This document shows, in pieces, positions 34,199 through 64,000 of a stretch of 64,000 nucleotides of DNA; the stretch's first letter is position 1, and the number at the start of each line of letters is the position of its first letter. Origin of the DNA: Pseudomonadota bacterium (GTDB lineage: Bacteria; Pseudomonadota; Gammaproteobacteria; Burkholderiales; Burkholderiaceae_E); contig JAKPAM010000136.1 in NCBI GenBank assembly GCA_029779435.1, positions 1 to 64,000 on the forward strand, in the 5' to 3' direction. The translations under genes were made by a program, and so were the position numbers. Below the pieces are notes generated by a model. It ran no database searches and had not been told where the DNA came from. It was given only the letters and a program-made list of their open reading frames with translations.

Positions 34199-34750
34199 TC
34201 ACGGCAGCATGCGCGCCAGCAACCGGTCGCGATCGATCCACTGATGCTTGATGACCGCGGCCAGATGCACGACGACCAGCGCGGCCATCGCCATGTTCAG
34301 CGCATAGTGGACGCCCTGGAGCGTTTCCTTGAGCTGCGGATCCGGCGCGATCAGCACCGGCAGCGGCAGCACGCCCAGATACACGACCGGCACCCCGGCG
34401 GCCAGGCTGTAGAAATAGCCGGACAGCGGCACCGCGAAGACGAGCCCGTACAACGCCCAGTGCACCGCGTGCGCCGCGCCGCGCTGCCACGCCGGCATCG
34501 ACGCCGGATCCGGCGGCGGGCGATGGCCCAGGCGCCACAGCAGCCTCAGGCAGGCCAGCGCGAACACCGTCACGCCCAGCCATTTGTGCCACGAGAAATA
34601 CTTGAGCTTGGTCGGCGTGATGCCGGGGATGTCGACCATCGTCATGCCGAGCACGAACGCGGCGACGATCAACAATGCACTCAGCCAGTGCAACGCGATC
34701 GCCGTCAACGTATAGCGCGGCACGCCATTCCTCTCGCGCCCTCTCGTCAT
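34199..34750 (-). CDS. Cytochrome b561-family membrane protein
   Basis: 183-residue four-helix membrane cytochrome. Candidate haem ligands are histidines in ALHWLSALLIVAAF, SWHKWLGVTV, AVHWALYGLVF and VVVHLAAVIKHQW. It probably passes electrons between quinone and a periplasmic partner; association with YceI suggests quinone handling. It is the first gene of the minus-strand operon ending in marR, just after the palindromic operator at 34771-34784. Confidence 0.9.
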   Translation of the reverse strand: MTRGRERNGVPRYTLTAIALHWLSALLIVAAFVLGMTMVDIPGITPTKLKYFSWHKWLGVTVFALACLRLLWRLGHRPPPDPASMPAWQRGAAHAVHWALYGLVFAVPLSGYFYSLAAGVPVVYLGVLPLPVLIAPDPQLKETLQGVHYALNMAMAALVVVHLAAVIKHQWIDRDRLLARMLP

Positions 34751-50163: not shown

Positions 50164-50256
50164 GCTTGGGACCTTGTCTGGTTGAGTAGGCGGCGCGATG
50201 CGCGACCGGATGCGGGCACGTCGGACCCGAACCGGGTATCCGCGCAAAGCGGAAGC

Positions 50257-50307
50257 AAAAAACAAAAAGGGCCTGGACGGATCGACGATCCGCGCAGGCC
50301 CTTTTTT
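50257..50307 (-). terminator. Leader terminator (attenuator) before urtA-urease operon
   Basis: Perfect 12-bp stem aaaaagggcctg / caggccctttttt-type (50264-50275 with 50295-50306) with an inner ggatc/gatcc stem. On the minus strand it is followed by an interrupted U-tract (tttttgtttttt). It lies inside the urtA 5' leader, between a TTGACA promoter and the start codon about 95 bp downstream, so it would stop transcription unless overcome. The hairpin is nearly symmetric and could also act on the plus strand. Confidence 0.8.
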
Positions 50308-50315
50308 GCCGACTG

Positions 50316-50341
50316 CGACACAGGCGATGTTGGCTGTGTCG
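50316..50341 (-). other. Stem-loop in the urtA leader preceding the terminator
   Basis: Perfect 8-bp stem cgacacag / ctgtgtcg with a 10-base loop, transcribed on the minus strand just before the leader terminator. A candidate regulatory hairpin recognised by an antiterminator; its loop does not show the clear AAGG-type core seen in the amiC leader. Confidence 0.5.
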
Positions 50342-50353
50342 TAAGTGTGACGA

Positions 50354-50383
50354 ATATTAGAGACGTCCATCCAACGCTGTCAA
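50354..50383 (-). promoter_or_regulatory. Sigma-70 promoter for the urtA-urease operon
   Basis: On the minus strand a perfect -35 TTGACA (50378-50383) and a -10 TAATAT (50354-50359) are separated by 18 bp. Transcription would start near 50347 and run through the 50316-50341 stem-loop and the leader terminator to urtA. The 316-bp gap 50164-50479 holds these elements and the unseen promoter for the divergent amiC-like gene; no other gene fits in it. Confidence 0.65.
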
Positions 50384-50479: not shown

Positions 50480-51664
50480 GTGTCCAATTCAGATCCGATC
50501 AAGGTCGGTGTCCTGTTCTCGCGTGAAGGGACGACCTCCCGGACCGAAAGGTCGATGCTGCTGGGCACGATCTTTGCAATAAGAGAGATCAACGACGCCG
50601 GCGGCCTCGACGGGCGCGAGATCGTGCCGATCCATTTCGATCCGCAATCGACGCCGCTCAGATACGCGGAGCTGGCGGCCAGGTTGATCGACGTCGAGCA
50701 CGTCAACGTGATCTTCGGCTGCTACATGTCGAGCACCCGCAAGGCGGTGCTGCCGATCGTCGAACGGTTCGACCGGCTGCTGTTCTATCCATCGATGTAC
50801 GAAGGCTTCGAGTTCTCGCCCAACATCATCTACACGGGCGGAACGCCCAACCAGCACAACCTGCCGCTGGCCCGCTACATGATGGCCAACTTCGGCGCGC
50901 GCGTGTACATGGTCGGCGGCGACTACATCTTTCCCTATGAATCGAACCGCACGATGAGCGATCTGATCCACCAGAGAAAAGGTGGGCGCAAGATCGGCGA
51001 GAAGTACGTGTCGCTCGACGCGCAGGAAAAGGACTTCGCGGCGATCGCGCGCGACATCCGGGACAAGCAGCCGGACTTCGTCTTCTCGACGGTCGTCGGC
51101 AGGACGACGAGGATGTTCTACCAGGCTTACGCCGACGCTGGGCTCGACCCCGCGACGATCCCGATCGCCAGCCTGACGACGACCGAGGTCGAAGTCCAGG
51201 AGATGGGCAGCCGGCTGGCGGCCGGGCACTTCACGGCCGCCCCCTATTTCAGGTCGCTGGCGACGCCGAAGAACGTCTCGACGGTGGGGCGCTTCACCAG
51301 ACTGTTCGGCGACCGGATCGAGCCCAACATGTGCTGGGAAGCCGCTTATTTCCAGGTGCACCTGTTCGCGCAGGCATTCCTGCAGGCGGGCGGCGACGAG
51401 CCTCGTCTTCTCGTTCCGCACCTTCATGGCGCCGAGTTCGACGCACCACAAGGGCGCGTGCGGATCGATCCGATCACGCACCACACGCGGCTGACGCCGC
51501 GCATCGGCCGGGTCGACGCGCAAGGCCAGTTCACGATCATGGCCGAGGCGCCCGCCGGCATCGAGGCCGACCCCTACCTGGCCAACCTGCAGTCCGACGA
51601 TTGGACGCAGGCGCTCAGGCCGATCGTCCCGCTGCAACCGACGGACCGCGCCCATGGCGCGTGA
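50480..51664 (+). CDS. AmiC-like cytoplasmic amide/urea sensor (first copy)
   Basis: 394-residue periplasmic-binding-protein-fold protein with no signal peptide, like Pseudomonas AmiC, the ligand sensor that sequesters the antiterminator AmiR. Characteristic segments: KVGVLFSREGTTSRTERSML, VIFGCYMSSTRKAVLPIVE, LLFYPSMYEGFEFSPN, GGTPNQHNLPLARYMM. The start is GTG 50480, which places the sensor core at residue 7 as in AmiC; no clear ribosome-binding site. It overlaps the ANTAR gene by 11 bp and is divergent from urtA-ure, making the urea/urease operon its likely target. The ligand is probably urea or a short amide (inference). Confidence 0.85.
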   Translation: MSNSDPIKVGVLFSREGTTSRTERSMLLGTIFAIREINDAGGLDGREIVPIHFDPQSTPLRYAELAARLIDVEHVNVIFGCYMSSTRKAVLPIVERFDRLLFYPSMYEGFEFSPNIIYTGGTPNQHNLPLARYMMANFGARVYMVGGDYIFPYESNRTMSDLIHQRKGGRKIGEKYVSLDAQEKDFAAIARDIRDKQPDFVFSTVVGRTTRMFYQAYADAGLDPATIPIASLTTTEVEVQEMGSRLAAGHFTAAPYFRSLATPKNVSTVGRFTRLFGDRIEPNMCWEAAYFQVHLFAQAFLQAGGDEPRLLVPHLHGAEFDAPQGRVRIDPITHHTRLTPRIGRVDAQGQFTIMAEAPAGIEADPYLANLQSDDWTQALRPIVPLQPTDRAHGA

Positions 51665-52274
51665 AACCTCGCGTCGAGCCCGGCGGCTGAGCCCGGAGTT
51701 CCTCAAGCAGTTGCGCAGCCGGCGCGTCGCGGTCATCCACCCGAACGACGCCGACGGCAGCGTCCTGCTGCTGCAACTGCAGCGCATCGGCTGCCAGGTA
51801 CAGGCCTACTGGCCGCCCCCGGCCGAACTGCCGGAGGGCACCGACATCGTCTTCTGCTCGGTGCAGCCCGAGCGGCAGCTCGACACTCACGACTGGGTGC
51901 GCGGTTGCGAGTCGGCCATCGTCATCGGCGTCATCGGTTACGAGAATCCGACGGTGTTCGACGCGTTGCTGTCCTTGAACGCATCGTGGGTCATCACGGT
52001 GCCGGTGCGCTCGACCGGCGTGTTGTCGGCGCTCGTGATGACGATCCAACGGCAGGACGAGACGCGCGCGCTGACCAAGCGGATCACGCGCCTCGAAGAA
52101 CGCCTGGCCAGCGCCAAACTGATCGACGACGCGAAATCGATCATCGCGCGCAGCCGCGACGTATCCGGTGACGAGGCCTACCGGCTGCTGCGCGAGCGGG
52201 CGATGGCCAAGCGCGTGCCGATCGAGGAGATCGCCCGCGCGATCGTCAACGCCGACGCGATCCTGTCCCGCTAG
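51654..52274 (+). CDS. AmiR-like ANTAR-domain transcription antiterminator (first copy)
   Basis: 206 residues. The N-terminal domain (about 22-130) has a receiver-like fold pattern (RRVAVIHPNDADGSVL) but lacks the phosphorylation aspartate, as in AmiR. A coiled coil (about 134-156, ALTKRITRLEERLASAK) and a C-terminal ANTAR domain (LIDDAKSIIARSRDVSGDEA, RLLRERAMAKRV, IEEIARAIVNADAIL) follow. ANTAR domains bind paired RNA hairpins in leaders and block terminators. Coupled to the AmiC-like sensor gene. Likely target: the leader terminator of the divergent urtA-urease operon. Confidence 0.88.
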   Translation: MARETSRRARRLSPEFLKQLRSRRVAVIHPNDADGSVLLLQLQRIGCQVQAYWPPPAELPEGTDIVFCSVQPERQLDTHDWVRGCESAIVIGVIGYENPTVFDALLSLNASWVITVPVRSTGVLSALVMTIQRQDETRALTKRITRLEERLASAKLIDDAKSIIARSRDVSGDEAYRLLRERAMAKRVPIEEIARAIVNADAILSR

Positions 52275-52488: not shown

Positions 52489-53109
52489 ATGACATCCGAC
52501 CTCCTCGATCACCCCCCGCGGACGTTCTCGCTGGCGAAGATCGCTCCTCAGCGATGGCGCAACGGCGGCGGGCTGACCCGCGAGATCCTGGTGCTGCCAT
52601 GCGCCGACGGCCGGGATTGGGATTGCCGCGTCAGCGTGGCCGATATCGAGCACGACGGCCCGTTCTCCACGTTCGACGGCATCGACCGCACGGCCGTGCT
52701 GCTGGAGGGGCCGGGTCTGCTGTTGCAAGGCGCGGCTGCCGGAGAATCGGTTCGCTTCGAGCATGTCGCCGCAGTGAATCGCTTCGCCGGCGAGACACCG
52801 CTGGTCGCGCGCCTGCCGGGCACCTCCGCCCGTCTGTTCAACGTGATGCACAGGCGATCCGCCTTCGTCGCGCAAGCGGACGCGCATCGCGCCGACGGCG
52901 GCAAGCTGCTGGATCGGGACTGCACCACCGTGGTTCTCGCGTATGCCGGCCGATTCGACCTGTCGTTCGAAGGCGAGACGGACGGCAGGCTGGCCATCAC
53001 TCTCAGCAGCGGCTCGGGCATGGTCGTCTTCGATCGCCGCGCTTCGCTCGACTGGCGTCCGCGTCAGGAAAACGGCCTGTTGATCATCGTCACGCTGGCT
53101 CGCGGCTAG
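52489..53109 (+). CDS. HutD/Ves family protein
   Basis: 206-residue cupin-like protein of the HutD/Ves family, associated with histidine utilisation; it is thought to modulate urocanate or formylglutamate flux and has no established enzymatic role. Family segments: RTFSLAKIAPQRWRNGGGLT, DWDCRVSVADIEHDGPFSTF, GIDRTAVLLEGPGLLL and RGDW-like region DCTTVVLAYAG. The start is ATG 52489; the nearest purine-rich sequence is too far, so the start is uncertain. It stands alone between the ANTAR gene and the nitrogen-assimilation cluster. Confidence 0.8.
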   Translation: MTSDLLDHPPRTFSLAKIAPQRWRNGGGLTREILVLPCADGRDWDCRVSVADIEHDGPFSTFDGIDRTAVLLEGPGLLLQGAAAGESVRFEHVAAVNRFAGETPLVARLPGTSARLFNVMHRRSAFVAQADAHRADGGKLLDRDCTTVVLAYAGRFDLSFEGETDGRLAITLSSGSGMVVFDRRASLDWRPRQENGLLIIVTLARG

Positions 53110-53221
53110 GGACGCGCTGATCGATTCGCCCGAGGGGCGGATGCGACGGCCAAGTGGAATTGATCAGCGCTTCCCTATTTCTCGTCGAGATACTTCAGCC
53201 ACTTATGGGGTCGGATATCGA

Positions 53222-53237
53222 CGCACCAAATGGTGCG
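53222..53237. promoter_or_regulatory. NtrC-like enhancer site 1
   Basis: Perfect 16-bp palindrome cgcaccaaatggtgcg. The half-sites gcacc/ggtgc match NtrC enhancers (GCACC-N5-GGTGC), but the spacer is four instead of five bases. It lies about 165 bp upstream of the sigma-54 promoter. Confidence 0.5.
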
Positions 53238-53262
53238 CACCCGATGCGAAATCCTCATTCGA

Positions 53263-53279
53263 TGCACCACGGGGGCGCA
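53263..53279. promoter_or_regulatory. NtrC-like enhancer site 2
   Basis: TGCACCACGGGGGCGCA, 17 bp, matches the NtrC consensus TGCACCA-N3-TGGTGCA at 12 of 14 positions with correct spacing. About 124 bp upstream of the sigma-54 promoter and 41 bp from site 1, a normal tandem enhancer layout. The 53110-53486 gap contains these sites, the promoter and a relatively AT-rich stretch, but no gene. Confidence 0.5.
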
Positions 53280-53386
53280 TCGCGCGTTCTCATTAGAAGT
53301 CTTCGCTTCATCAGTCCTTCCGATTCTATTGATAAGAATTTCTTCACTTGCCGCGGTCGACGATGTTCGCGATGAGAATTCCTGGC

Positions 53387-53402
53387 AGGCACCAAAGTTG
53401 CA
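53387..53402 (+). promoter_or_regulatory. Sigma-54 promoter of the glnT/gmaS cluster
   Basis: AGGCACCAAAGTTGCA matches the sigma-54 consensus TGGCAC-N5-TTGCA at every position except the first. The -24 GG and -12 GC are correctly spaced. Predicted start near 53413, about 75 bp before the start codon of the glutamine-synthetase-like gene. Confidence 0.75.
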
Positions 53403-53486
53403 GCACGGCACGGGTCCTTAGTGCATGGCGCCTCCAACGCCCCCCGCCGCGCCGCCGTCGATTCCGCCCAATTCAGGAGCCCCTCC

Positions 53487-54878
53487 ATGCAGACCGATTC
53501 CTTCTCCCACGCCGACTCGGTGGGCGCACTGGTCACTCCACCTCGCTTCGATTCCGTCAGCGACGCCCAGCAGTATCTGCGGGCACAAGGCGTCAGCTAC
53601 GTGCTCGCGCAGTTCGTCGACGTACATGGGGTGGCCAAGGCCAAGGCCGTCCCGGTCTCGCATCTGCAGACGGTTCTGGCCGACGGCGCCGGCTTCGCCG
53701 GCTTCGCGATCTGGGGCGTCGGCATCGAACCGCACGGACCCGACTTCATGGCCGTCGGCGACCTGGCCACGCTGTCGCCCGTACCTTGGCAGCCCGGCCT
53801 GGCGCGGATCGTCTGCGAGGGCCATGTCGACGGCAAGCCCTGGGCTTATGACAGCCGCATCACGCTAAAGAGGCAGATCGCGCGCATGGCCGAGCGCGGC
53901 TACACGCTCTTCACCGGGCTGGAGCCGGAATTCTCGCTGCTTCGACGTGACGAGCAGGGGCGCATCCAGCCGTTCGACCCGAGCGATACGCTAGCCAAGC
54001 CCTGCTACGATTACAAGGGCTTGTCGCGCACCCGCGATTACCTGGAGAAGCTGTCGAACGCGCTGCGCGCCACCGGCATCGACGTCTACCAGATCGACCA
54101 CGAGGACGCCAACGGCCAGTTCGAGTTGAACTACACGTTCACCGACTGCCTGACCTCGTGCGACCACTTCGTGTTCTTCAAGATGGCGGCCAGCGAGATC
54201 GCCAACCAGATGGGCCTGTTGTGCTCGTTCATGCCCAAGCCGTTCGGGCACCTGCCGGGCAACGGCATGCACATGCACATGTCGATCGGTGACGGCCAGT
54301 CGAATCTGTTCCAGGACAGGAACGACCCGCGCGGCCTCGAATTGTCGACGCTCGCCTACCACTTCATGGGCGGCGTGCTCGCGCATGCAGCGGCGCTGGC
54401 CGCGCTGTGCGCGCCGACCGTCAACTCGTACAAGCGGCTGGTCGTCGGCCGCTCGCTGACCGGCGCGACCTGGGCGCCCGCCTACATCAGCTACGGCGAC
54501 AACAACCGTTCGAGCATGATCCGCGTTCCCAAGGGTCGCCTCGAGCTGCGGCTGCCCGATGGGTCGGCCAATCCTTACCTGGCGACCGCGGCCGTCATCG
54601 CCGCCGGCCTGGACGGCGTCGATCGCAAGCTCGACCCGGGCACCCCGCGCAACACCAATCTGTACGACTGGAGCGCCGAGCAGCTTCGCGAGGCCGGCAT
54701 CGGCATGCTGCCGCAGAACCTGGGCAGCGCGCTGGACGCGCTCGAGGCCGATTCGCTGATCTGCGAAGCGCTCGGTCCGGTCAGCGCCGAGTTCCTCAAG
54801 CTCAAGCGGATGGAATGGGTGGAGTACCAGCGCCACGTCTCCGAGTGGGAAATCAAGCAATACGTCGAATTCTTCTGA
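53487..54878 (+). CDS. Type III glutamine synthetase-like ligase (GlnT / gamma-glutamylmethylamide synthetase)
   Basis: 463-residue ATP-dependent ligase of the glutamine synthetase superfamily, subtype containing rhizobial GlnT and methylotroph GmaS. Active-site motifs: [53 protein letters not shown] and [15 protein letters not shown]. It joins glutamate to ammonia or to methylamine. ATG 53487 follows aggag at seven bases. First gene of a four-gene set with glutamate-synthase-like partners; both glnT-glxBCD and gmaS-mgsABC have this composition, so the substrate cannot be settled here. Expression probably needs sigma-54 and NtrC. Confidence 0.85.
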
Positions 54879-54893
54879 GAGGACACCAACGCC

Positions 54894-55802
54894 ATGTGCG
54901 GAATTGTTGGGCTGCTGGTCAAGAAGCCAGCGTTGCGAGAACAACTGGGCCGTTTGATGGTCCCGATGCTGATCGGCATGACCGAGCGCGGCCCCGACTC
55001 GGCGGGCCTGGCCGTCTTCACGCCCAAGCTGAACGGCGAGCGCCGCAAGATCAGCGTCTACTCGGGTTTCACGCCCGCCGGCGACGCTTATGACTGGAAC
55101 GGCCTGGTCACCGCGCTGAACGGCGCGCTGCGAGCCGATGCCATCGTGGAAACCAAGGGAAATCACGCGATCGTGGCGTTCGGCATCGCGCCGGCGGCCG
55201 TCAAGGAATGGATCGGCGCGTACGATCCGGCACTGCACGTGTTCTCGACCGGTCAGCGCATCGACCTCTACAAGGACACGGGCACGCCCGAGGAGGTCGC
55301 GCTGCGCTACGACTTCGCCGACCTGAAGGGCACGCACCTGGTCGGCCACACGCGGATGGCCACCGAATCGGCGGTGACGCCCGATCGCGCGCATCCGTTC
55401 ACGGCCGGCGAGGACTTCTGCCTCGTGCACAACGGCTCGCTGTCGAACCATCACGAGATCCGGCGGATGCTCGAACCGAAGGGCATCCACTTCGACACCG
55501 ACAACGATACCGAAGCCGCGACCCGCTTCATCGAATGGCGGCTGCGCGAAGGCGACACGCTGCAGCAGGCGCTGCAACAAGGCTTCGACGTGCTCGACGG
55601 GTTCTATACGTTCCTGATGGGCACCGCCACCGAACTGGCACTGATCCGCGACCCGTTCGCCTGCAAGCCGGCGGTGGTCGCCGAAACCGACGACTACGTC
55701 GCGATCGCGTCCGAGTTCCGCTCGCTCGCGCACCTGCCCGGCGTCAATCACGCCAAGGTCTTCGAACCCGCGCCCGAGGAGATGTACGTATGGAAAGCCT
55801 GA
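54894..55802 (+). CDS. Class II glutamine amidotransferase domain protein (GlxB/MgsA-like)
   Basis: 302-residue N-terminal-nucleophile amidotransferase. Cys2 (MCGIVGLLV) is the nucleophile; TERGPDSAG, HTRMATESAVTPDRAHPF and CLVHNGSLSNHHEIRRML are the glutamine-site motifs. It corresponds to the glutaminase domain of glutamate synthase as a separate subunit (GlxB of rhizobia, MgsA of N-methylglutamate synthase). It starts 15 bp after the ligase gene and overlaps the next gene by 13 bp. Confidence 0.88.
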   Translation: MCGIVGLLVKKPALREQLGRLMVPMLIGMTERGPDSAGLAVFTPKLNGERRKISVYSGFTPAGDAYDWNGLVTALNGALRADAIVETKGNHAIVAFGIAPAAVKEWIGAYDPALHVFSTGQRIDLYKDTGTPEEVALRYDFADLKGTHLVGHTRMATESAVTPDRAHPFTAGEDFCLVHNGSLSNHHEIRRMLEPKGIHFDTDNDTEAATRFIEWRLREGDTLQQALQQGFDVLDGFYTFLMGTATELALIRDPFACKPAVVAETDDYVAIASEFRSLAHLPGVNHAKVFEPAPEEMYVWKA

Positions 55803-56482
55803 GCTTCGACCTGGACGCGACGCCGCTGCGCGAGGTCAACCGGTTCCTGCATCACGAAGCGCCCGGCAAGGGCGACCTGTCGGTGGTCATCCGCAATCCG
55901 AACGGCGCGCATTCGATCGCGGCGGGACTGAACGCGCCGATCAAGGTGACGATCGACGGCCATGCCGGCTACTACGCGGCCGGCATGAACCAAGGCGGCG
56001 ACGTGACGATCACCGGCAGCGCCGGTACCGGCGTGGCCGAGAACATGATGAGCGGCATCGTGCACGTCAAGGGATTCGCGTCGAACGCCGCCGGCGCGAC
56101 CGCCCACGGCGGCCTGCTGATCATCGACGGCGACGCCGGCCTGCGCTGCGCGATCTCGCTGAAAGGGGCCGACGTCGTCGTCGGCGGCTCGGTCGGCAGC
56201 TTCTCGGCCTTCATGGCCCAGGCGGGCAACCTCGTCGTGCTCGGCGACGCCGGCGAAGCGCTCGGCGACTCGCTGTACGAGGCGCGGATCTTCGTTCGCG
56301 GCAAGGTCAAGAGCCTGGGCGCCGATTGCGAGCGCAAACCGATGGGCGAGGCCGAGACGAAGATCCTCGCCGATCTGCTGGCCCGGGCCGGCCATGCGAA
56401 CGTCTCGCCCGCCGAGTTCACCTGCTACGGCTCGGCCCGCACGCTGTACCACTTCCACGTCGACAACGCCGGCGCCTACTGA
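55790..56482 (+). CDS. GXGXG-domain protein (GlxC/MgsB-like)
   Basis: 230-residue right-handed beta-helix protein corresponding to the C-terminal GXGXG domain of glutamate synthase (also related to formylmethanofuran dehydrogenase subunit C). The repeated turns are visible as regular G-x-x-G-x-(V/I) motifs, e.g. MNQGGDVTITGSAGTGV, GLLIIDGDAGLR, GADVVVGGSVGSF, NLVVLGDAGEALGD. A structural subunit joining the glutaminase and FMN synthase subunits. Overlaps the upstream gene. Confidence 0.88.
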   Translation: MESLSFDLDATPLREVNRFLHHEAPGKGDLSVVIRNPNGAHSIAAGLNAPIKVTIDGHAGYYAAGMNQGGDVTITGSAGTGVAENMMSGIVHVKGFASNAAGATAHGGLLIIDGDAGLRCAISLKGADVVVGGSVGSFSAFMAQAGNLVVLGDAGEALGDSLYEARIFVRGKVKSLGADCERKPMGEAETKILADLLARAGHANVSPAEFTCYGSARTLYHFHVDNAGAY

Positions 56483-56508
56483 AGCCGACCGACCCTGCGA
56501 GACCCATT

Positions 56509-57849
56509 ATGAGTGCACCCTCTCACGATCGCGTCGACGCCGCGCGGACCGCCCCGCGCTTCTCGGCGACCTTCGATCCGTACACGCTGTCCGAGATCCG
56601 CCGCGCGGCGGCTACCGGCATCTACGACATCCGCGGCGGCGGCGCCAAGCGCAAGCTGCCCCACTTCGACGACCTGCTGTTCCTCGGCGCTTCGATCAGC
56701 CGCTACCCGCTCGAGGGTTATCGCGAGAAGTGCGGCACCGACGTCGTGCTGGGTACCCGCTTCGCGAAAAAGCCGATCCACCTGAAGACGCCGGTCACGA
56801 TCGCCGGAATGAGCTTCGGTGCGCTGTCCGCGCAAGCCAAGGAAGCGCTGGGCCGCGGCGCCAGCGCCGTCGGCACCAGCACCACCACCGGCGACGGCGG
56901 CATGACGCCCGAGGAGCGCGGCCACTCGAAGACGCTCGTCTACCAGTACCTGCCGTCGCGCTACGGGATGAACCCCGATGACCTGCGCAAGGCCGACGCG
57001 ATAGAGGTCGTGGTCGGCCAGGGCGCCAAGCCCGGCGGCGGCGGCATGCTGCTGGGCCAGAAGATCAGCTCGCGCGTCGCCAGGATGCGCTGCCTTCCCG
57101 AAGGGATCGACCAGCGTTCGGCGTGCCGGCACCCGGACTGGACCGGCCCCGATGACCTGGAGATCAAGATCCTCGAACTGCGCGAGATCACCGACTGGGA
57201 AAAGCCGATCTACGTGAAGGTCGGCGCGACCCGTCCTTATTACGACGTCGCGCTGGCCGTCAAGGCGGGTGCCGACGTCGTCGTGCTCGACGGCATGCAG
57301 GGCGGCACCGCCGCCACGCAGGAGGTGTTCATCGAGCACGTCGGGATTCCGATCCTCGCGGCGATCCGTCCGGCCGTGCAGGCGCTGCGCGACCTGAACA
57401 TGCACCGCAAGGTGCAGTTGATCGTCTCGGGCGGCATCCGCAACGGCGCCGACACCGCGAAGGCGCTGGCGCTGGGGGCTGACGCCGTCGCGATCGGCAC
57501 GGCCGCGCTGGTCGCACTGGGCGACAACGACCCGCGCTGGCAAGCCGAGTACGAAGCGCTGGGCACGACGGCCGGCGCTTATGACGACTGGCACGAGGGT
57601 CGCGACCCGGCCGGCATCACGACGCAGGATCCGGCGCTGGCCGCGCGGCTCGACCCGCTGCTGGCCGGCCGCCGGCTGGCCAACTACCTGTCGGTGATGA
57701 CGATGGAAGCGCAAGTGATCGCGCGCGCCTGCGGCAAATCGCACCTGCACAACCTCGAACCGGAGGATCTCGCCGCGCTGACCATCGAGGCTGCGGCGAT
57801 GACGCAGGTGCCGCTGGCGGGAACCGACTGGATACCGGGCAAGTTGTGA
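56509..57849 (+). CDS. FMN-binding glutamate synthase domain protein (GlxD/MgsC-like)
   Basis: 446-residue protein corresponding to the FMN/synthase domain of the glutamate synthase large subunit. Motifs: PVTIAGMSFGALSAQAKEAL, TSTTTGDGGMTPEERGHS, GQGAKPGGGGMLLGQKIS, VVLDGMQGGTAATQEVFI, VSGGIRNGADTAKALALGAD. Forms a three-subunit glutamate- or N-methylglutamate-synthase-like enzyme with the two preceding products. The Fe-S cluster cysteines and NADPH subunit of classical GltBD are absent, so an alternative electron source or an electron-neutral transfer is implied. Confidence 0.88.
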   Translation: MSAPSHDRVDAARTAPRFSATFDPYTLSEIRRAAATGIYDIRGGGAKRKLPHFDDLLFLGASISRYPLEGYREKCGTDVVLGTRFAKKPIHLKTPVTIAGMSFGALSAQAKEALGRGASAVGTSTTTGDGGMTPEERGHSKTLVYQYLPSRYGMNPDDLRKADAIEVVVGQGAKPGGGGMLLGQKISSRVARMRCLPEGIDQRSACRHPDWTGPDDLEIKILELREITDWEKPIYVKVGATRPYYDVALAVKAGADVVVLDGMQGGTAATQEVFIEHVGIPILAAIRPAVQALRDLNMHRKVQLIVSGGIRNGADTAKALALGADAVAIGTAALVALGDNDPRWQAEYEALGTTAGAYDDWHEGRDPAGITTQDPALAARLDPLLAGRRLANYLSVMTMEAQVIARACGKSHLHNLEPEDLAALTIEAAAMTQVPLAGTDWIPGKL

Positions 57850-57955
57850 TAGCCCCGTCGGACCGCGCGGAAAATTATCGGATCATCGCATCACTTCGGT
57901 GCCGGATGCGCCTGTTCCGCGCGCGTTCCGCACTATGCCGGTGAGGCGCATGACG

Positions 57956-57986
57956 CTTAGGAAATTCGCTTGCCAAGCCACCTAAG
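57956..57986. promoter_or_regulatory. Nested dyad in the second amiC promoter region
   Basis: Outer inverted repeat cttagg (57956-57961) / cctaag (57981-57986) encloses a smaller one, gctt-gcc-aagc. It sits just upstream of a weak -10-like tattct (57995-58000). Either an operator for the second amiC-amiR unit or a leader hairpin if transcription starts further upstream. Confidence 0.4.
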
Positions 57987-58010
57987 TACCATGCTATTCT
58001 GAGCCCATCG

Positions 58011-58057
58011 GAGCAAGGAAGCTCTCGTCCAGGCGCAAGCCGGCGAGGGCTTTTTTT
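58011..58057 (+). promoter_or_regulatory. Leader attenuator of the second amiC-amiR operon
   Basis: A small hairpin gagc-AAGGAA-gctc (58011-58024), with a six-base loop having A at position 1 and G at position 4, shares its 3' arm with the 5' arm of an intrinsic terminator: gctctcgtcc (58021-58030) with ggcgagggc (58042-58050), then seven T. The two structures exclude each other. A start codon follows 17 bases after the T-tract. This matches the overlapped-hairpin design of ANTAR antitermination and suggests autoregulation by the AmiR-like product. Confidence 0.75.
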
Positions 58058-58074
58058 ATTGGCGGCCGGACATC

Positions 58075-59214
58075 ATGGCGAAAGACACACTGAAGGTTGG
58101 CGTGCTGTTCTCGCAGACGGGGCCCACAGCCTTCGTCGAGCGTACGCAATGCAATGCCACGCTGTTGGCGATCGAGGCGATGAATGCCAGCGGCGGCGTC
58201 CGCGGCCAGGCGGTCGAGCCCGTCATTCGCGATCCGAAGTCCCGCGTTCCCGACTACGTCGCGCTGGCAAGCGAATTGCTCGAAGTCCATCGGGTACCGC
58301 TGATCTTCGGCTGCTACATGACCAACACACGGCAAGCGCTGGTGCCGCTGGTCGAGCGCCGCAACGCCGTCCTCGCTTATCCGGCCCCCTATGAGGGCTT
58401 CGAGTACTCGCGCAATGTGTTCTACGGCGGCGCGGTCCCGAACCAGCACATCGTGCCGCTCGCCCGCTACCTGATGGCCCATGCCGGCAGGCGCTTCTAT
58501 CTGGTCGGCACCCGTTACACGTTTCCGGTCGAATCGAATCGCGTGATGATGACGCTGATCTCCGAAGGCAAGGGCGAGATCCTGGCCGAACGATACGTAC
58601 CGCTCGACGCGACGCGGCACGAGCTGACGGCGCTCGCCCGGCACATCAAGAGCAAGCAGCCCGACGTGGTCTTCTGCACGGTCGTCGGCGAAGCGGCCGC
58701 GCGATTCCACCAGGCCTGCCGCGAGGAAGGAATCTCCCCCGCGGACACCACGATCGCCGGGCTGACGATCACCGAGGCCGAAGTCCAGTTGATGGGGGCG
58801 GAGCTCGCCCGCGGCCACCTGACCGCCGCCACGTATTTCGAGTCGATCGACAGCCCCGCCAATCGCCGCTTCGTCGATCGCTATCGCTCGGCGTACGGAC
58901 CCGCCGCGCACACGAACGCGATGGCCGAGACCGCCTGGTCGCTGACCAGCATGGTATTGGCGGCCGCCGATCGTTGCGGCTCCATGGACGCCGACGCGCT
59001 GCGCAACGAAATGGCCCGCGAGCCTTTCGATGCGCCGCAAGGCATCATCCGGCTCGATACGCAGAACAATCATTTCCATCTGTGGCCGCGTGTTGCACGA
59101 GTCGGCTACGACGGCGGCTTCGAGGTCCTCGAGACGGCCCCCTGCGCGCTGAAGCCGGATCCGTACCTGATCAACCATGGCATCGCCGGGAATGATCCCG
59201 GTACGCGGGACTAG
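58075..59214 (+). CDS. AmiC-like cytoplasmic ligand sensor (second copy)
   Basis: 379-residue binding-protein-fold sensor without signal peptide, paralogous to the first copy at 50.5 kb. Segments: LKVGVLFSQTGPTAFVERTQ, LIFGCYMTNTRQALVPLVE, LAYPAPYEGFEYSRNVFYGG, VPNQHIVPLARYLM. Presumed to bind a small amide-, urea- or hydantoin-like ligand and release its AmiR partner, encoded two bases downstream. Preceded by its own terminator-bearing leader. Pocket residues differ from the first copy, fitting a different ligand (inference). Confidence 0.85.
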   Translation: MAKDTLKVGVLFSQTGPTAFVERTQCNATLLAIEAMNASGGVRGQAVEPVIRDPKSRVPDYVALASELLEVHRVPLIFGCYMTNTRQALVPLVERRNAVLAYPAPYEGFEYSRNVFYGGAVPNQHIVPLARYLMAHAGRRFYLVGTRYTFPVESNRVMMTLISEGKGEILAERYVPLDATRHELTALARHIKSKQPDVVFCTVVGEAAARFHQACREEGISPADTTIAGLTITEAEVQLMGAELARGHLTAATYFESIDSPANRRFVDRYRSAYGPAAHTNAMAETAWSLTSMVLAAADRCGSMDADALRNEMAREPFDAPQGIIRLDTQNNHFHLWPRVARVGYDGGFEVLETAPCALKPDPYLINHGIAGNDPGTRD

Positions 59215-59216
59215 CC

Positions 59217-59837
59217 ATGTCGACCGCGATACGCCGAGGCGACCCGGTCCTGAAGTCGTTGCGCGACATCCGCCGGATGCGCGTGCTGATCGTCCATCCG
59301 CGCGACCGGGACTGCGACGATCTGTCGGCGCAAGTCAAGCGTATCGGCTGCCAGGTCGAATCGACGTGGCCGCCGCCGTCGTCGATTCCCGACGATGTCG
59401 AGATCGTCTTCATCCTGTTTCGCGGCCAGAAGGATACCGCCGGGCTGACGAGGCTCCTGCAGAGCCGCGTTCCCCGACCGACGATCATCGGCATCGTGGA
59501 ATTCGAGAGCCCGACGGCGATCGAGGACGTCGTCGGCGCCGGCACGCTGTCGATCGTCACCAAGCCGATACGCGGTTTCGGCCTGCTGACCTCGATGGTC
59601 ATCGCGCATGACCTGAATGCCTCGACGAGAGCGATGCAGACGCGCATCACCAAGCTCGAATCCCGGCTGGTCGGCATCAAGCGCATCGAGCAGGCCAAGT
59701 CGATTCTGATGCTGCGCAACCGGATCAGCGAACAGGAGGCTTATGAAAAGATCCGCTTGCAGGCGATGAAGCAAAGGGTTAGCATGGAGTCCATAAGTTC
59801 TTCGATCGTCTCCACTAATGACATGCTCGGTCAATGA
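59217..59837 (+). CDS. AmiR-like ANTAR-domain transcription antiterminator (second copy)
   Basis: 206 residues, the same architecture and exact length as the first copy: a pseudo-receiver (MRVLIVHPRDRDCDDLSAQV) without the phosphorylation aspartate, a coiled coil (AMQTRITKLESRLVGIK) and an ANTAR domain (RIEQAKSILMLRNRISEQEA, YEKIRLQAMKQRVSMESI). Its likely RNA targets are its own operon leader at 58011-58057 and the two tandem leader terminators before hyuA at 59947-60139. Confidence 0.88.
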   Translation: MSTAIRRGDPVLKSLRDIRRMRVLIVHPRDRDCDDLSAQVKRIGCQVESTWPPPSSIPDDVEIVFILFRGQKDTAGLTRLLQSRVPRPTIIGIVEFESPTAIEDVVGAGTLSIVTKPIRGFGLLTSMVIAHDLNASTRAMQTRITKLESRLVGIKRIEQAKSILMLRNRISEQEAYEKIRLQAMKQRVSMESISSSIVSTNDMLGQ

Positions 59838-59883
59838 ATGATCCGGCACGGAGCGATGGGTTGGTGACAGGTTGACGAGCTTT

Positions 59884-59917
59884 CCGTAGATCCTTTCCCG
59901 TTTTTCCGGATCCACGG
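59884..59917. other. Long imperfect dyad in the amiR-hyuA spacer
   Basis: ccgtagatcc (59884-59893) and ggatccacgg (59908-59917) pair at 9 of 10 positions around a 14-base T-rich centre. No T-tract follows, so it is not an obvious terminator; it may be an operator or an RNA element at the 5' end of the hyuA leader. Confidence 0.35.
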
Positions 59918-59946
59918 TTCTCGATCAGATGCATACGGTTCGATCG

Positions 59947-60018
59947 CTGCAAAGGCTGCAGTGGCCGGGCCTGGCTAAGAAAGCCACCTTCGACATCACG
60001 TCGGCGGTGGCTTTTTTG
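59947..60018 (+). promoter_or_regulatory. First tandem attenuator of the hyuA leader
   Basis: Hairpin 1 ctgca-AAGGC-tgcag (59947-59961); hairpin 2 ggct-AAGAA-agcc (59973-59985); then an intrinsic terminator aaagccacc / ggtggcttt (59980-59988 with 60006-60014), inner stem cgac/gtcg and a T6 tail. The 3' arm of hairpin 2 is the 5' arm of the terminator, so the two compete. Two small hairpins followed by an overlapping terminator is the layout recognised by ANTAR antiterminators; such a gene ends 110 bp upstream. Confidence 0.75.
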
Positions 60019-60060
60019 TTTCTTGATTTTGTTCGTTCGATTTCATTGACTGTCCTTCGC

Positions 60061-60139
60061 GCGGCTGGGTTGCCGCCGCGGGGCGTGGCTAAGAAAGCCG
60101 CCTTCGGTGTCCATCACCGCCGGCGGCTTTTTTGTTTTT
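60061..60139 (+). promoter_or_regulatory. Second tandem attenuator of the hyuA leader
   Basis: Hairpin 1 gcggc-TGGGTT-gccgc (60061-60076) has a six-base loop with G at position 4. Hairpin 2, ggct-AAGAA-agcc (60087-60099), is identical to that of the first unit. The terminator is aaagccgcc / ggcggcttt (60094-60102 with 60122-60130) with inner ggtg/cacc stem and a T-rich tail. Again hairpin 2 overlaps the terminator arm. hyuA starts 26 bases after the tail. The 59838-60164 gap holds this doubled leader and no gene. Confidence 0.75.
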
Positions 60140-60164
60140 GGCATCCTCAACTGGAGTAAAGCGC

Positions 60165-62219
60165 ATGGCCTCCCTCACCGATTCCAGCAAGGCGGTCCGC
60201 GTCGCCTGCGACGTCGGCGGTACCTTCACCGATATCTGCGTCCTCAACGAAGCATCGGGTCGGATGCACGTGGCCAAGGTGCCGACGACCGTCGATCCGA
60301 TCGACGGCGTGCTGGCCGGCATCACCGCCGGCAACGTCGATCTCAACGACCTGGTGCTCTTCTCCCACGGCACGACGCTGGCGACCAACGCGCTGATCAC
60401 GCGGCGCTTTCCTCCGGCCGTGATGATCACCACCGAAGGCTTCCGCGACACGATCGAGATCCGCCGCGGCAATCGCGACGACCTGTGGGACGCGTACAAG
60501 GAGATCGCCAAGCCGTACATCCGCCGCCGCGACCGTCTCGTCGTGCCCGAGCGCATCGACTATGCCGGCGTCGTCGTCACGCCGCTGGACGTCGACAAGG
60601 CCCGCGACGTCGCGCGCGTCGTCGCCAAGCGCGGCGTCAAGACGATCGCGATCTGCTTCGCGAACGCCTACGTGAACCCCGCCCACGAGCAGCAGATGCG
60701 CGACATCGTGCTCGAGGCGATTCCCGACGCGACGATCTCGCTGTCCAGCGAGATCATGCCGGAGATCTTCGAGCACGAACGCTTCTCCACGACCGTGGCC
60801 AATGCGGTGCTGGCGCCGGTGGCCGGCAGGTATGCGGCGCAGCTGGAAAGCCGCATGCAGGCCGGCGGCTACAAGGAAGACGTGATGCTGCTGCACTCGG
60901 GCGGCGGCGTGATGAAGGCGAAGATGGCCGAGAAGTTCGCCGCGCGGCTGTCGGCCTCCGGCATCGCGGCGGGCGCGATCGCCAGCCGCTTCGTCGCCGA
61001 GAGCGCGGGCTTCAAGTTCTCGATCGGCCTGGACATGGGCGGAACGTCGACCGACGTCTCGCTGTGCGACAACGGCAAGCTGCGCGTCACCAAGGAATGG
61101 CACGTCGAGTACGGCTACCCGATCTGCTTCCCGTCGATCGAGGTGCTGACGATCGGCGCGGGCGGCGGTTCGCTGGCCTGGATCGACGCGGCCAAGTCGC
61201 TGCGCAACGGCCCGCAGTCGGCCGGCTCCAATCCCGGTCCGGCCTGCTACGGCCGCGGCGGCACCGAGCCCACGAACTGCGATGCGAACGTGGTGCTCGG
61301 CCGGCTCAGCGACCGGCTGGCCGGCGGCGGCGTGGCGCTCGACCGCGCCAAGGCCGAGGAAGCGATCAGGCGCGCCGTGGCCGAACCGATGGGCATGAGC
61401 GTCGAGGACGCCGCGCTGGCGATCCTGAAGGTCGCGAACGCCAACATGGCCGACGCGGTGCGGCTGCTGTCGATCCGGCGCGGTTATGACCCGCGCGACT
61501 TCGCGCTGGTGGCGTTCGGCGGCGCCGGCCCGCTGCACGGTGCCGCGCTGGCGCGTGATCTGTCGATCCCGGTCGTGCTGGTCCCGCCGAATCCCGGCGT
61601 CACGTCCGCGCTCGGCTGCCTGCTGGTGGACATCCAGCACGACGTCACCCAGATGTACCTGTCGCGCGTCGAGGACGCCTCGGTCGACGATCTGGAGGCC
61701 AGCTTCGCCAAGCTCGAGGAAGAAGGCCGCCAGCGGCTGATGACCGAAGGCATCAGCGACGACCAGATGGTGTTCCAGCGCCAGATCGACATGCGCTATC
61801 TCGGCCAGTGGCGCGCGATGTCGATCCCGGTGCCCTCGCCGGTCACCACGCTGGACAGCGTCATCGAGGCGTTCCACCACGAGCATGCCCGCGAGCACAA
61901 CTACTCGCAGCCCGGCGAGCCGGTCGAGATCTACCGGATCAGCGTGATCGCGACGGGCCTGACACCGAAGGCGAAGTTCGCCGAGTTCGACCCCGTCGAC
62001 GAGCCGCCCGTCCCGCAGGCGTCGCGCCTCGTCCGCTTCGACGAGCTGCCCGAGAAGGTCGATACGCCCGTCTTCGATCGCAGCCTGCTGAAAGCCGGCA
62101 TGAAGGTCGCCGGCCCCGCGATCATCGACCAGCTCGATTCGACGATCGTCGTCCCGCCCGGCGTCACGGCCGAAGTCGACCGCTCGCTGACGATCGTCAT
62201 GCGCGTGCCGCTCGCGTGA
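60165..62219 (+). CDS. hyuA: Hydantoinase/oxoprolinase subunit A (HyuA-like)
   Basis: 684-residue ATP-dependent amidohydrolase subunit of the N-methylhydantoinase A / 5-oxoprolinase / acetone carboxylase beta superfamily. N-terminal phosphate-binding motif VACDVGGTFTDICVL, FSHGTTLATNALI, and the second actin-like motif GLDMGGTSTDVSLCDNG; later AFGGAGPLHGAALARDLSI and NPGVTSALGCLLVD. ATG 60165 is preceded by ctggag. With hyuB it would hydrolyse a hydantoin, oxoproline or related cyclic amide, releasing usable nitrogen. Control through two upstream attenuators is inferred. Confidence 0.9.
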   Translation: MASLTDSSKAVRVACDVGGTFTDICVLNEASGRMHVAKVPTTVDPIDGVLAGITAGNVDLNDLVLFSHGTTLATNALITRRFPPAVMITTEGFRDTIEIRRGNRDDLWDAYKEIAKPYIRRRDRLVVPERIDYAGVVVTPLDVDKARDVARVVAKRGVKTIAICFANAYVNPAHEQQMRDIVLEAIPDATISLSSEIMPEIFEHERFSTTVANAVLAPVAGRYAAQLESRMQAGGYKEDVMLLHSGGGVMKAKMAEKFAARLSASGIAAGAIASRFVAESAGFKFSIGLDMGGTSTDVSLCDNGKLRVTKEWHVEYGYPICFPSIEVLTIGAGGGSLAWIDAAKSLRNGPQSAGSNPGPACYGRGGTEPTNCDANVVLGRLSDRLAGGGVALDRAKAEEAIRRAVAEPMGMSVEDAALAILKVANANMADAVRLLSIRRGYDPRDFALVAFGGAGPLHGAALARDLSIPVVLVPPNPGVTSALGCLLVDIQHDVTQMYLSRVEDASVDDLEASFAKLEEEGRQRLMTEGISDDQMVFQRQIDMRYLGQWRAMSIPVPSPVTTLDSVIEAFHHEHAREHNYSQPGEPVEIYRISVIATGLTPKAKFAEFDPVDEPPVPQASRLVRFDELPEKVDTPVFDRSLLKAGMKVAGPAIIDQLDSTIVVPPGVTAEVDRSLTIVMRVPLA

Positions 62220-62260: not shown

Positions 62261-64000
62261 ATGAGCAAACCGATCCATCAACTCGACCCCGTCACGTTCG
62301 AGGTCCTGAAGAACGCCTACGTCAACATCGTCGATCAGATGGCCGAGCAGATCGTTCGCACCTGCTACTCGTTCGTCATCTATTCGCGCGACTTCTCGTC
62401 GGCGCTGTGCGACCCGAACGGCGACACGATCATGCAGGGCAGCGGCGACATCGCCGCCCACGTCGGCAGCCTGCACTACACGGCCAAGGCCGTCATCAAG
62501 CAGTTCGCCGGCGACATCCATCCCGGCGACGTGTACGTCATCAACGACGTCTATCAAGGCGGCACGCACTTCAACGACACGCGGATCATCCGGCCGATCT
62601 TCTACAAGGACGAACTGCTGGGCTTCGCGCAGGCCAACGGCCACTGGGCCGACGTCGGCGGCGCCGTGCCCGGCTCGTTCAACGTGTCGGCGATCGATCA
62701 CATGGCCGAGGGCCTGCGCATCACGCCGACGCGGGTCTGGAGCAAAGGCCGTTGCCTGACCGACGTCTGCAACCTGATCGCGTCGAATACCCGCGCGCCG
62801 GCCGACATCATCGGCGACATGCAGGCACAGGCCGAAGCCGCGCGCATCGCCGAGGTCGAGATCTGTCGCCTGGTCGACAAGTACGGCCTGGACGTCATCA
62901 AGCAATCGTTCCGCGCGGTCCAGGACTACGTCGAGGTCCTGACCCGGCAGCGCGTCAAGGCGCTGCCCGATGGCGTGTGGGAGACCGAGGACTACATCGA
63001 CGTCGACCCGGGTGTCGGCGAAGGCCTGGTGCCGATCAAGATCCGCATGAAGATCAGCGGCGAGACGGTCCACTACGACCTGTCGGGCTCGCATCCGAAG
63101 TCGATCGCCAGCTTCCTGAACTCGTGCTACGGCGGCACGTTCGCCGCGATCGTCGCCGGCACGAAGATGCAGTTCCCCGAGATTCCGCTGAACTCGGGCT
63201 TCTATCGCGTCGTCACCGTCGACCTCGGGCCGGAAGGCAGCGTCGTCAACGCCGCGTGGCCGACACCGGTCGCCGGCTTCTGTTCGGGCCCGTTCGAAAA
63301 GATCATGAACGCGATCTTCGAGCTCTGGGCGGAGATCCTGCCCGAGCGCGCGATGGCCTGCACGTTCAACCTCGATTACCTGCTGATCGGCGGACGTGAT
63401 GGACGTGATGGACGTGAGCGCAACAGCGCCGCGCACAAGTACTTCATGTGGTACGACTGGATGGTCGGCGGCTGGGGTGCGCGCAACGGCCTCGACGGCT
63501 CGCCGTCGACCGGCCCGGTGTTCGGCGTCCAGCTCGGCACGCAGCCGTTCGAAGGCCAGGAGCGACTGGCGCCCGTGCTGACCACCTGCCACGAACTGCG
63601 GGTCGACTCCGGCGGCCCGGGCGAGTACCGCGGCGGCATGGGCGTCGAGAAGGGCGTCATCATGACCGAGGTCGACAAGACCGTGGTCTCGTACTGCTGC
63701 GACCGCGAGCGCTCGATCACATGGGGGTTATGGGGCGGCCTGCCGTCGCTGCCGCACGGCGTCTGGGTCAACCCGGGCCTGCCGAACGAACGCTACCTGG
63801 GCTCGCTGTTCTCCAATGTCGGATTGTCGGCGGGCGACCTCGTGCAACGGCCGTCGGCCGGCGGCGGCGGTCTCGGGGATCCGCTCGAGCGCGACGAACT
63901 GACGGTGCGCGAGGACGTGGCCGACGGCTACGTGTCGGTCGAACGCGCGGCCAAGGACTATGGCGTGATCATCAAGGTGATCGATGCCGACCTCGCGCAA
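62261..64000 (+). CDS. hyuB: Hydantoinase/oxoprolinase subunit B (HyuB-like), 3' truncated by window
   Basis: Partner subunit of HyuA. 580 codons are open to the last base, so the end lies outside. The N-terminus MSKPIHQLDPVTFEVLKNAY is typical. Other family segments: YVINDVYQGGTHFNDTRIIR, ANGHWADVGGAVPGS, LTDVCNLIASNTRAPAD and SGGPGEYRGGMGVEKG. ATG 62261 follows ggag, 41 bp after hyuA. A three-unit GRD/GRE repeat occurs at residues about 378-386, an unusual insertion. Confidence 0.9.
   Translation, partial: MSKPIHQLDPVTFEVLKNAYVNIVDQMAEQIVRTCYSFVIYSRDFSSALCDPNGDTIMQGSGDIAAHVGSLHYTAKAVIKQFAGDIHPGDVYVINDVYQGGTHFNDTRIIRPIFYKDELLGFAQANGHWADVGGAVPGSFNVSAIDHMAEGLRITPTRVWSKGRCLTDVCNLIASNTRAPADIIGDMQAQAEAARIAEVEICRLVDKYGLDVIKQSFRAVQDYVEVLTRQRVKALPDGVWETEDYIDVDPGVGEGLVPIKIRMKISGETVHYDLSGSHPKSIASFLNSCYGGTFAAIVAGTKMQFPEIPLNSGFYRVVTVDLGPEGSVVNAAWPTPVAGFCSGPFEKIMNAIFELWAEILPERAMACTFNLDYLLIGGRDGRDGRERNSAAHKYFMWYDWMVGGWGARNGLDGSPSTGPVFGVQLGTQPFEGQERLAPVLTTCHELRVDSGGPGEYRGGMGVEKGVIMTEVDKTVVSYCCDRERSITWGLWGGLPSLPHGVWVNPGLPNERYLGSLFSNVGLSAGDLVQRPSAGGGGLGDPLERDELTVREDVADGYVSVERAAKDYGVIIKVIDADLAQ
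63392..63418 (+). repeat. Three 9-bp in-frame tandem repeats inside hyuB
   Basis: ggacgtgat, ggacgtgat, ggacgtgag in direct succession encode GRDGRDGRE. It is in frame, like the repeats in arnC and srkA. Confidence 0.9.

Follow-up and report, generated by a model that had tools for sequence, protein, structure and literature searches.

The window analysed here is a stretch of 64,000 nucleotides from a Pseudomonadota bacterium of the Burkholderiaceae_E, at the 3′ end of which a pair of regulatory genes, amiC2 and amiR2, is followed by the hydantoinase-family genes hyuA and hyuB. Two attenuator modules, gate 1 (59937-60018) and gate 2 (60052-60134), are located between the AmiR-type ANTAR gene and hyuA, in a leader of 327 nt between the amiR2 stop at 59837 and the hyuA ATG at 60165. 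A third module, gate 0, was absent from the original prediction. The features are as follows.

57970-58000, + strand: weak promoter-like sequence TTGCCA-19-TATTCT before gate 0 (loose scan, 9/12)
57993-58058, + strand: gate 0, P2 hairpin and terminator upstream of amiC2 (model R2, detector, fold)
58075-59214, + strand: amiC2, predicted ligand-sensing repressor of AmiR (Peripla_BP_5, E 9.7e-121)
59217-59837, + strand: amiR2, AmiR-type ANTAR antiterminator (AmiR_N, 3.8e-35; ANTAR, 1.6e-14)
59937-59971, + strand: gate 1 P1 hairpin, extended stem, with its core CTGCAAAGGCTGCAG at 59947-59961 (fold, model R2)
59972-59986, + strand: gate 1 P2 antiterminator hairpin TGGCTAAGAAAGCCA (fold)
59982-60018, + strand: gate 1 intrinsic terminator (59982-60012) and T tract, 5′ arm in common with P2 (detector, fold)
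60052-60084, + strand: gate 2 P1 hairpin, extended, with its core GCGGCTGGGTTGCCGC at 60061-60076 (fold, model R2)
60085-60101, + strand: gate 2 P2 antiterminator hairpin GTGGCTAAGAAAGCCGC (fold)
60096-60134, + strand: gate 2 intrinsic terminator (60096-60128) and T tract, 5′ arm in common with P2 (detector, fold)
60165-62219, + strand: hyuA, hydantoinase/oxoprolinase A subunit (Hydantoinase_A, Hydant_A_N and Hydant_A_C above cut-off)
62261-64000, + strand: hyuB, continuing past the end of the window (Hydantoinase_B, E 7.8e-145)

The two regulators have the domains of a sensor/antiterminator pair, with a Peripla_BP_5 protein encoded next to one that combines AmiR_N and ANTAR. The best solved structure for AmiC2 is AmiC (1PEA, E 9.4e-83) and for AmiR2 it is AmiR (1QO0 chain D, E 1.9e-27). 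The ANTAR domain of AmiR2 (PF03861, above cut-off) is one of three ANTAR matches in the genome, and the AmiR-type identity originally given to the gene upstream of the leader is thus upheld by its domains. HyuA and HyuB carry the Hydantoinase_A and Hydantoinase_B domains of the HyuAB family, and the best solved structure for HyuA is the N-methylhydantoinase 7hk5 (E 3.3e-137), with 6yra also among the best matches. Their domain content is like that of ATP-dependent hydrolases of the N-methylhydantoinase and caprolactamase type; the scores, 517.5 bits for HyuA and 325 bits for the part of HyuB within the window, are below the NCBIfam caprolactamase cut-offs of 1000 bits.

A doubled dual-hairpin attenuator, with overlap of P2 and terminator and with T tracts, had been proposed for the leader, and this is confirmed by the coordinates, the folds and the detector. 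Each module is composed of a P1 hairpin and a P2 hairpin, with the 3′ arm of P2 also serving as 5′ arm for an intrinsic terminator. The further proposal that the same module, with an identical P2, is present twice is correct in part. A P2 13-mer, GGCTAAGAAAGCC, is identical in gates 1 and 2 and has no further occurrence in the assembly, even when one position is allowed to vary, and GGCTAAGNAAGCC occurs only at these two sites in the assembly (4.97 Mb, 84% complete). The P1 sequences of the two gates differ, however, and the P2 loops can be read either as 5 nt, closed by a U-A pair as in the minimum free energy (MFE) structure, or as 7 nt (UAAGAAA, with G at position 4). Of the aligned columns, 72% are identical between the copies (59% in P1 and linker, 80% in P2 and terminator); given these differences, the second copy is therefore not an echo of assembly. 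Between the terminator stems of the two gates there is a compensatory A-U/G-C change (AGCCAC/GUGGCU versus AGCCGC/GCGGCU).

For ANTAR targets, PMC3369931 gives the P1/P2 model, the A1/G4 rule and the linker limits. As in that model, both copies have two hairpins, each with 3 bp or more, and an intrinsic terminator that overlaps the second. The P1 loop of gate 1 is AAAGGCU (A1, G4), or AAGGC if the A-U pair closes, and P1 of gate 2 has the hexaloop UGGGUU (U1, G4). G4 is readable in all four loops of gates 1 and 2 if the loop-adjacent U-A/A-U pair is open; if that pair closes, as in the MFE structure, three of them have the G at position 3. A1 is present only in P1 of gate 1, in the 7- or the 5-nt loop, with U1 in P1 of gate 2 and in both P2 loops. 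The strict form of the rule, a hexanucleotide loop with A1 (PMC3369931), is therefore broken in three of the four loops of the hyuA leader.

In both copies, the MFE structure of nascent-RNA fragments ending after P2 contains P1 and P2, whereas fragments that contain the terminator fold the terminator instead (z -4.3 and -5.4 for two fragments of gate 1, -4.2 for gate 2; 0 of 200 shuffles as good for each). P2 alone has -5.2 kcal/mol in gate 1 and -7.5 kcal/mol in gate 2, against -19.2 and -22.1 kcal/mol for the respective terminators. The terminator, being far more stable, is therefore the predicted default, and P2 would need help to form. The module detector (E up to -19, at least 5 T), applied to both strands of the 64 kb, gave four matches, at 58051, 60012 and 60128 on the + strand and at 50262 on the - strand, compared to 1 match in total in twelve shuffles of the whole window. 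There were 0 Rfam matches at gathering score in the window.

A first covariance model, R1, covering P1 and P2 (39 positions), was too short to decide. In the window it placed gate 2 second of 48 (15.1 bits, E 0.081), with a match at 34493 scoring higher, and gate 1 was missing from its matches up to E 10. Many matches had similar scores, and nothing in the whole genome was significant. Tried on eight loci, it had only four above the E 0.01 threshold, all from its own training set. It was replaced by R2, in which the terminator was added, representing P1 and terminator. R2 is based on alignment A6 of 24 AmiC-AmiR leaders, window excluded: 22 hand-picked from the 33 modules of the P1 statistics below (near-duplicates and long linkers dropped), together with the leaders of Methylopila capsulata (L110) and Hansschlegelia beijingensis (L111), for which the start of P1 was set by eye. 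A covariance search had been suggested as a check of the doubled module, and R2, which contains no window sequence, puts both copies at the top in the 5-Mb genome: gate 2 is first (35.9 bits, E 3.8e-7), gate 1 second (32.1 bits, E 6.0e-6) and gate 0 third (23.0 bits, E 0.0036), with the next match at E 0.69, where 150 of 3484 first-look candidates were scored and the E-values are rough. The other genome terminators that were scored stay below the R2 level of the three window modules.

Modules of this kind were sought beside AmiC-AmiR pairs in 120 loci, 117 of which have both AmiC and AmiR as anchors. Single modules are common there: 82 were kept, leaving 75 distinct candidates, in 62 of the 117 loci, once duplicates had been removed. 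Since the loose detector found 53 matches on the opposite strand in the 120 loci, compared to 97 on the AmiR strand, some of the 75 modules are due to chance. The 75 were selected for G4 in P2, and the choice of P1 was independent of G4. A P1 with a G4 hexaloop is present in 37 of the 75, against 4.7 ± 2.0 (maximum 14) in 300 shuffles, and 33 of these 37 also have A1 (shuffle mean 1.0, maximum 7).

Covariation in homologous leaders, which the original prediction entailed, is supported by the covariation score and not by the number of pair types. The score is 0.417 for P1 and P2 (0.197 in shuffles) and 0.377 for P1 and terminator (0.186 in shuffles), with 0 of 500 shuffles as high in either case, and cells with a change on both sides likewise exceed all 500 shuffles. 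The count of further pair types is unremarkable, being reached by 367 of 500 shuffles for P1 and P2 and by 34 of 500 for P1 and terminator. Alignment A5 contains 28 of 30 chosen modules, L098 and L112 having been dropped as misaligned; its sequences were picked for P1 pairing, therefore the percentage of P1 pairing in A5 is no evidence. Among the 46 modules downstream of AmiR, U1 is present in P2 in 26, and 7-nt P2 loops, as scored, in nine. U1 in P2 is thus common among AmiR-linked modules and looks like a subclass trait.

Relatives of the locus were taken from further genomes and from AmiC alignment A2 (the best 80 of at least 578 confirmed loci); a search for related loci with AmiR2 alone found none, and no closer relatives of the genome than these came up in the searches. 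The order amiC-amiR-module-hyuA-hyuB, with one module, is found in L110, L111 and L170 (Aminobacter niigataensis). Relative to L110 and L111, identity is 61% for AmiC, 53-54% for AmiR, 80-82% for HyuA and 85% for HyuB; relative to L170 it is 43%, 32%, 71% and 77%, respectively. Apart from these three and the loci L128, L134 and L153 described below, no HyuA was found in the AmiC-AmiR loci that were fetched, except for a 40% homologue in L151. Methylopila and Hansschlegelia are Alphaproteobacteria, and with HyuA and HyuB 80-85% identical and AmiR only 53-54%, there may have been horizontal transfer of the hyuAB cassette, with faster evolution of the regulator.

The P2 hairpins of L111 (GGC-UAAGGAA-GCC) and L110 (GGC-CAAGGGA-GCC) have 7-nt loops like those of the window, and that of L170 is GAGC-AAAGAA-GCTC. 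In L110 and L111, P1 is readable by eye as GCGCC-[A NN G AU(C)]-GUCGC with one C-U mismatch; the automatic search did not list it, and the MFE structure pairs this stretch otherwise. Here too, a compensatory change is seen in the terminator stem when L110 and L111 are compared. In three other Aminobacter loci (L128, L134, L153) hyuAB is divergent from amiC-amiR and has its own leader terminator before hyuA, with a P2 loop, AAAAAG, that is without G4; the loop rule may therefore differ again by AmiR subclass. These three also have a P1 GACGCU and a common TTGACA about 40 nt upstream of P1, as judged by eye. In L073, L074, L075, L076, L078, L127, L146, L147 and others, modules precede a divergent AmiC-like substrate-binding protein (SBP) gene as a single gate, with a P1 of AAAGGC type and P2 loops of the form GGC-AAAGAA-GCC.

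The doubling is rare in the genomes searched. With R2, matches were found at E up to 0.05 in 91 of 379 genomes from the order and at E up to 0.005 in 59 of 383 from the phylum, and in both surveys only the genome of the window had same-strand pairs within 250 nt, as judged by eye; the genome sets overlap, the filters were strict and 12 candidates per genome were scored, so that weak modules may be missed. In none of the 80 AmiC loci did R2 match the same strand twice within 250 nt; L127 has a weak second match at the same place on the opposite strand. A tandem scan of the 120 loci with the G4 rule off listed ten pairs. In three of these (L109, L183, L189) AmiR is followed by two terminators, the second with a P2 loop that is without G4; the pair in L075, 204 nt apart, has one member without P1 and looks like chance, and the remaining pairs were judged by eye to be coding-sequence noise.

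Gate 0, before amiC2, has a regular A1/G4 hexaloop in its P2 (GGAGC-AAGGAA-GCTCT, 58010-58025), which is overlapped by a terminator at 58020-58051 with a T tract. No clear P1 was found in gate 0, and its P2 is absent from the MFE structure of the nascent fragment. Its fold (z -3.2, 1 of 200 shuffles as good) is less striking than those of gates 1 and 2. The promoter-like sequence before it is of sigma-70 type with non-optimal spacing, and is graded weak because it was found by the loose scan only, the standard scan giving none. Hairpin-terminators are also present upstream of amiC in L110, L111 and L170, therefore control of the regulator genes may belong to the design, and gate 0 probably makes the amiC2-amiR2 sensor pair autoregulated.

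In EutV, eleven residues contact the RNA, Y164 stacks on G4, and G4 is the sole base-specific contact (PMC8934654). By alignment, AmiR2 retains seven of the eleven (K143, K149, E160, Y164, R168, M172, R175) and departs from EutV at R142, K147, N173 and R177. G4 as the sole base-specific contact fits the window, where G4 is readable in four loops and A1 is present in one.

The ligand side of the system may differ from that of P. aeruginosa. Relative to P. aeruginosa AmiC, AmiC2 has the changes S85T, T106A and Y152F, at positions that we take to be ligand-pocket residues. A106 is common to the five hyuA-linked AmiC proteins compared, which have T (two) or S (three) at position 85 and F (three) or W (two) at position 152. 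In L004, hyuB is followed 3′ by a urea-transporter-type substrate-binding protein, below curated cut-offs, and further downstream by permease-, ATPase- and reductase-like ORFs, named by eye, and then by a close homologue (L004:6908-8026) of haem-dependent oxidative N-demethylase (HODM; 5lte, E 5.4e-143). On the other side of the regulators, a second pair, AmiC1-AmiR1 (50480-52274), is divergent from a urea-type SBP gene followed by urease-like genes, by eye, with a leader terminator at about 50262 on the - strand (50160-50370) that has an A-rich P2-like loop. After AmiR1, the stretch 52492-57849 contains a HutD-like gene and a type III glutamine synthetase (TIGR03105, above cut-off), and further ORFs there presumably encode three N-methylglutamate synthase subunits, which they resemble. 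This gene set suggests methylamine assimilation and, together with HODM and the AmiC1-AmiR1 unit, suggests a methylated-nitrogen catabolic island. The HODM, type III glutamine synthetase family and urease-like neighbours point to an N-methylated amide or ureide as the ligand.

AmiC/AmiR-type antitermination of hyuAB, as originally proposed, is backed by the gene order, by the modules in other genera and by the model built without the window. From these sequence comparisons, it is likely, with a probability of about 0.8, that the leader is an inducible AmiC/AmiR-type antitermination leader controlling hyuAB and the transporter. By default, the nascent RNA would fold the gate 1 terminator, and any polymerase that leaks through would meet the gate 2 terminator, so that hyuAB and the transporter would be off. 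Without ligand, AmiC2 would hold AmiR2 inactive. Once AmiC2 has bound its ligand, a small nitrogenous compound and probably an amide or ureide that is N-methylated or cyclic, AmiR2 would be released and would bind the P1 loop and then the P2 loop, holding P2 such that its 3′ arm is unavailable to the terminator. The polymerase would have to be antiterminated twice before reaching hyuA. By this reasoning, the leaks of the two gates would multiply to give the overall leak, as would their antitermination efficiencies to give the induced flow, therefore leak would be lower, at some cost in maximum output, while the module before amiC2 would probably autoregulate the sensor pair. A more elaborate form is proposed tentatively and is somewhat doubtful: a tandem switch in which one AmiR reads both modules via the 7-nt U1 loops as a two-step multiplicative gate on the hydantoinase-family operon, with gate 0 closing a positive feedback to give an ultrasensitive induction circuit.

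It is possible, though unlikely, that only one module is under AmiR2 control, the other being a decayed duplicate or an ordinary terminator that reduces readthrough. The divergence of P1 between the copies (59% with the linker) and the U1, not A1, in P1 of gate 2 would fit this, as would the second terminators without G4 in P2 after the AmiR-linked modules of L109, L183 and L189 and the single module before hyuA in L110, L111 and L170. However, both copies score high with R2, the P2 13-mer is identical, the gate 2 terminator stem is compensatory relative to that of gate 1, and a terminator closed to AmiR2 would keep the operon low unless it were weak. That the terminators merely end the amiC-amiR transcript and insulate a hyuAB operon with its own promoter, with no antitermination, is improbable. 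They do stand directly after amiR, in a leader of 327 nt, and a generic terminator scan of 57700-60300 is not above chance (2 sites, gates 0 and 2, with gate 1 missed, against a shuffle mean of 1.9). Yet the standard promoter scan found none in 57700-60300, the looser scan of 59838-59950 reached at best 8/12, and P1/P2 hairpins that overlap the terminator are far above chance in homologous leaders. In L128, L134 and L153, furthermore, a similar terminator precedes hyuA although amiC-amiR is divergent, therefore the terminator of the hyuA leader does not end amiR there.

The leader might instead be read by AmiR1 (51654-52274), or by both AmiRs, which would couple hyuAB to the neighbouring urea/methylamine unit. 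AmiC1-AmiR1 lies about 7 kb upstream of gate 1 with a leader terminator of its own, and AmiR1 and AmiR2 are 37% identical; this coupling is nonetheless quite improbable, as the leader at 50262 looks different by eye, with its A-rich P2 loop and another hairpin read there by the detector, and the AmiC-AmiR-hyuA order is kept in L110, L111 and L170, whose adjacent AmiR corresponds to AmiR2. It is very improbable that a 76-codon frame spanning both modules (59929-60159), which is open, probably by chance, is translated as part of a ribosome-controlled attenuator: it has no clear ribosome-binding site by eye, and the duplication of the RNA stems accounts for the two similar segments of its peptide.

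The preferred reading, antitermination by AmiR2, can be set against the known systems. P. aeruginosa AmiC/AmiR-amiE has the same pair of AmiC and AmiR homologues and a two-hairpin leader with an overlapping terminator (PMC3369931). Its target is an amidase, whereas in the window it is hyuAB with a transporter, and unlike the amiE leader the window has two modules before hyuA and a third before amiC2. The E. faecalis eut/EutV system has the same P1/P2 logic, G4 and several ANTAR-controlled terminators per operon (PMC8934654). According to PMC3369931, however, the eut terminators precede different genes, whereas in the window two stand back to back in one leader, and the eut P1-P2 linkers are 5-12 nt, whereas in the MFE structure of the window the extended P1 stem leaves zero linker before P2. 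EutV recognizes A1NNG4 hexaloops, in contrast to the P2 loops of 7 (or 5) nt with U1 in the window. Methylopila, Hansschlegelia and A. niigataensis have the same regulator pair, target, module and amiC-upstream hairpin-terminator, with one module before hyuA where the window has two.

At least 13 attenuators in six transcription units are described for Desulfotomaculum acetoxidans (PMC3369931). With the multiple attenuators of eut and D. acetoxidans, there is therefore precedent in principle for serial ANTAR gates. For Salmonella mgtCBR, tandem attenuators of a different kind are reportedly in print (PMC3641672). The original statement that no case with this target and doubling is described is uncontradicted by the literature searched, as judged from titles and the starts of abstracts of the papers listed, in which there was no hydantoinase-target or doubled ANTAR leader; the predicted-target tables of PMC3369931 might include a hydantoinase. 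With single modules and serial gates known, what differs here is two full modules in one leader, U1 P2 loops readable as 7 nt, and a target of the hydantoinase family.

If both gates work, the leader would be a natural test of the benefit of serial antitermination, be it lower leak, a steeper response or an AmiR checkpoint that is passed twice. Leaders of the ANTAR type are known from amide, nitrate and ethanolamine genes. AmiC/AmiR control would here extend to ATP-dependent hydantoinase-type enzymes beside methylated-nitrogen genes, and there may be a subclass of AmiR whose RNA loops depart from the A1/G4 hexaloop rule derived from EutV and NasR.
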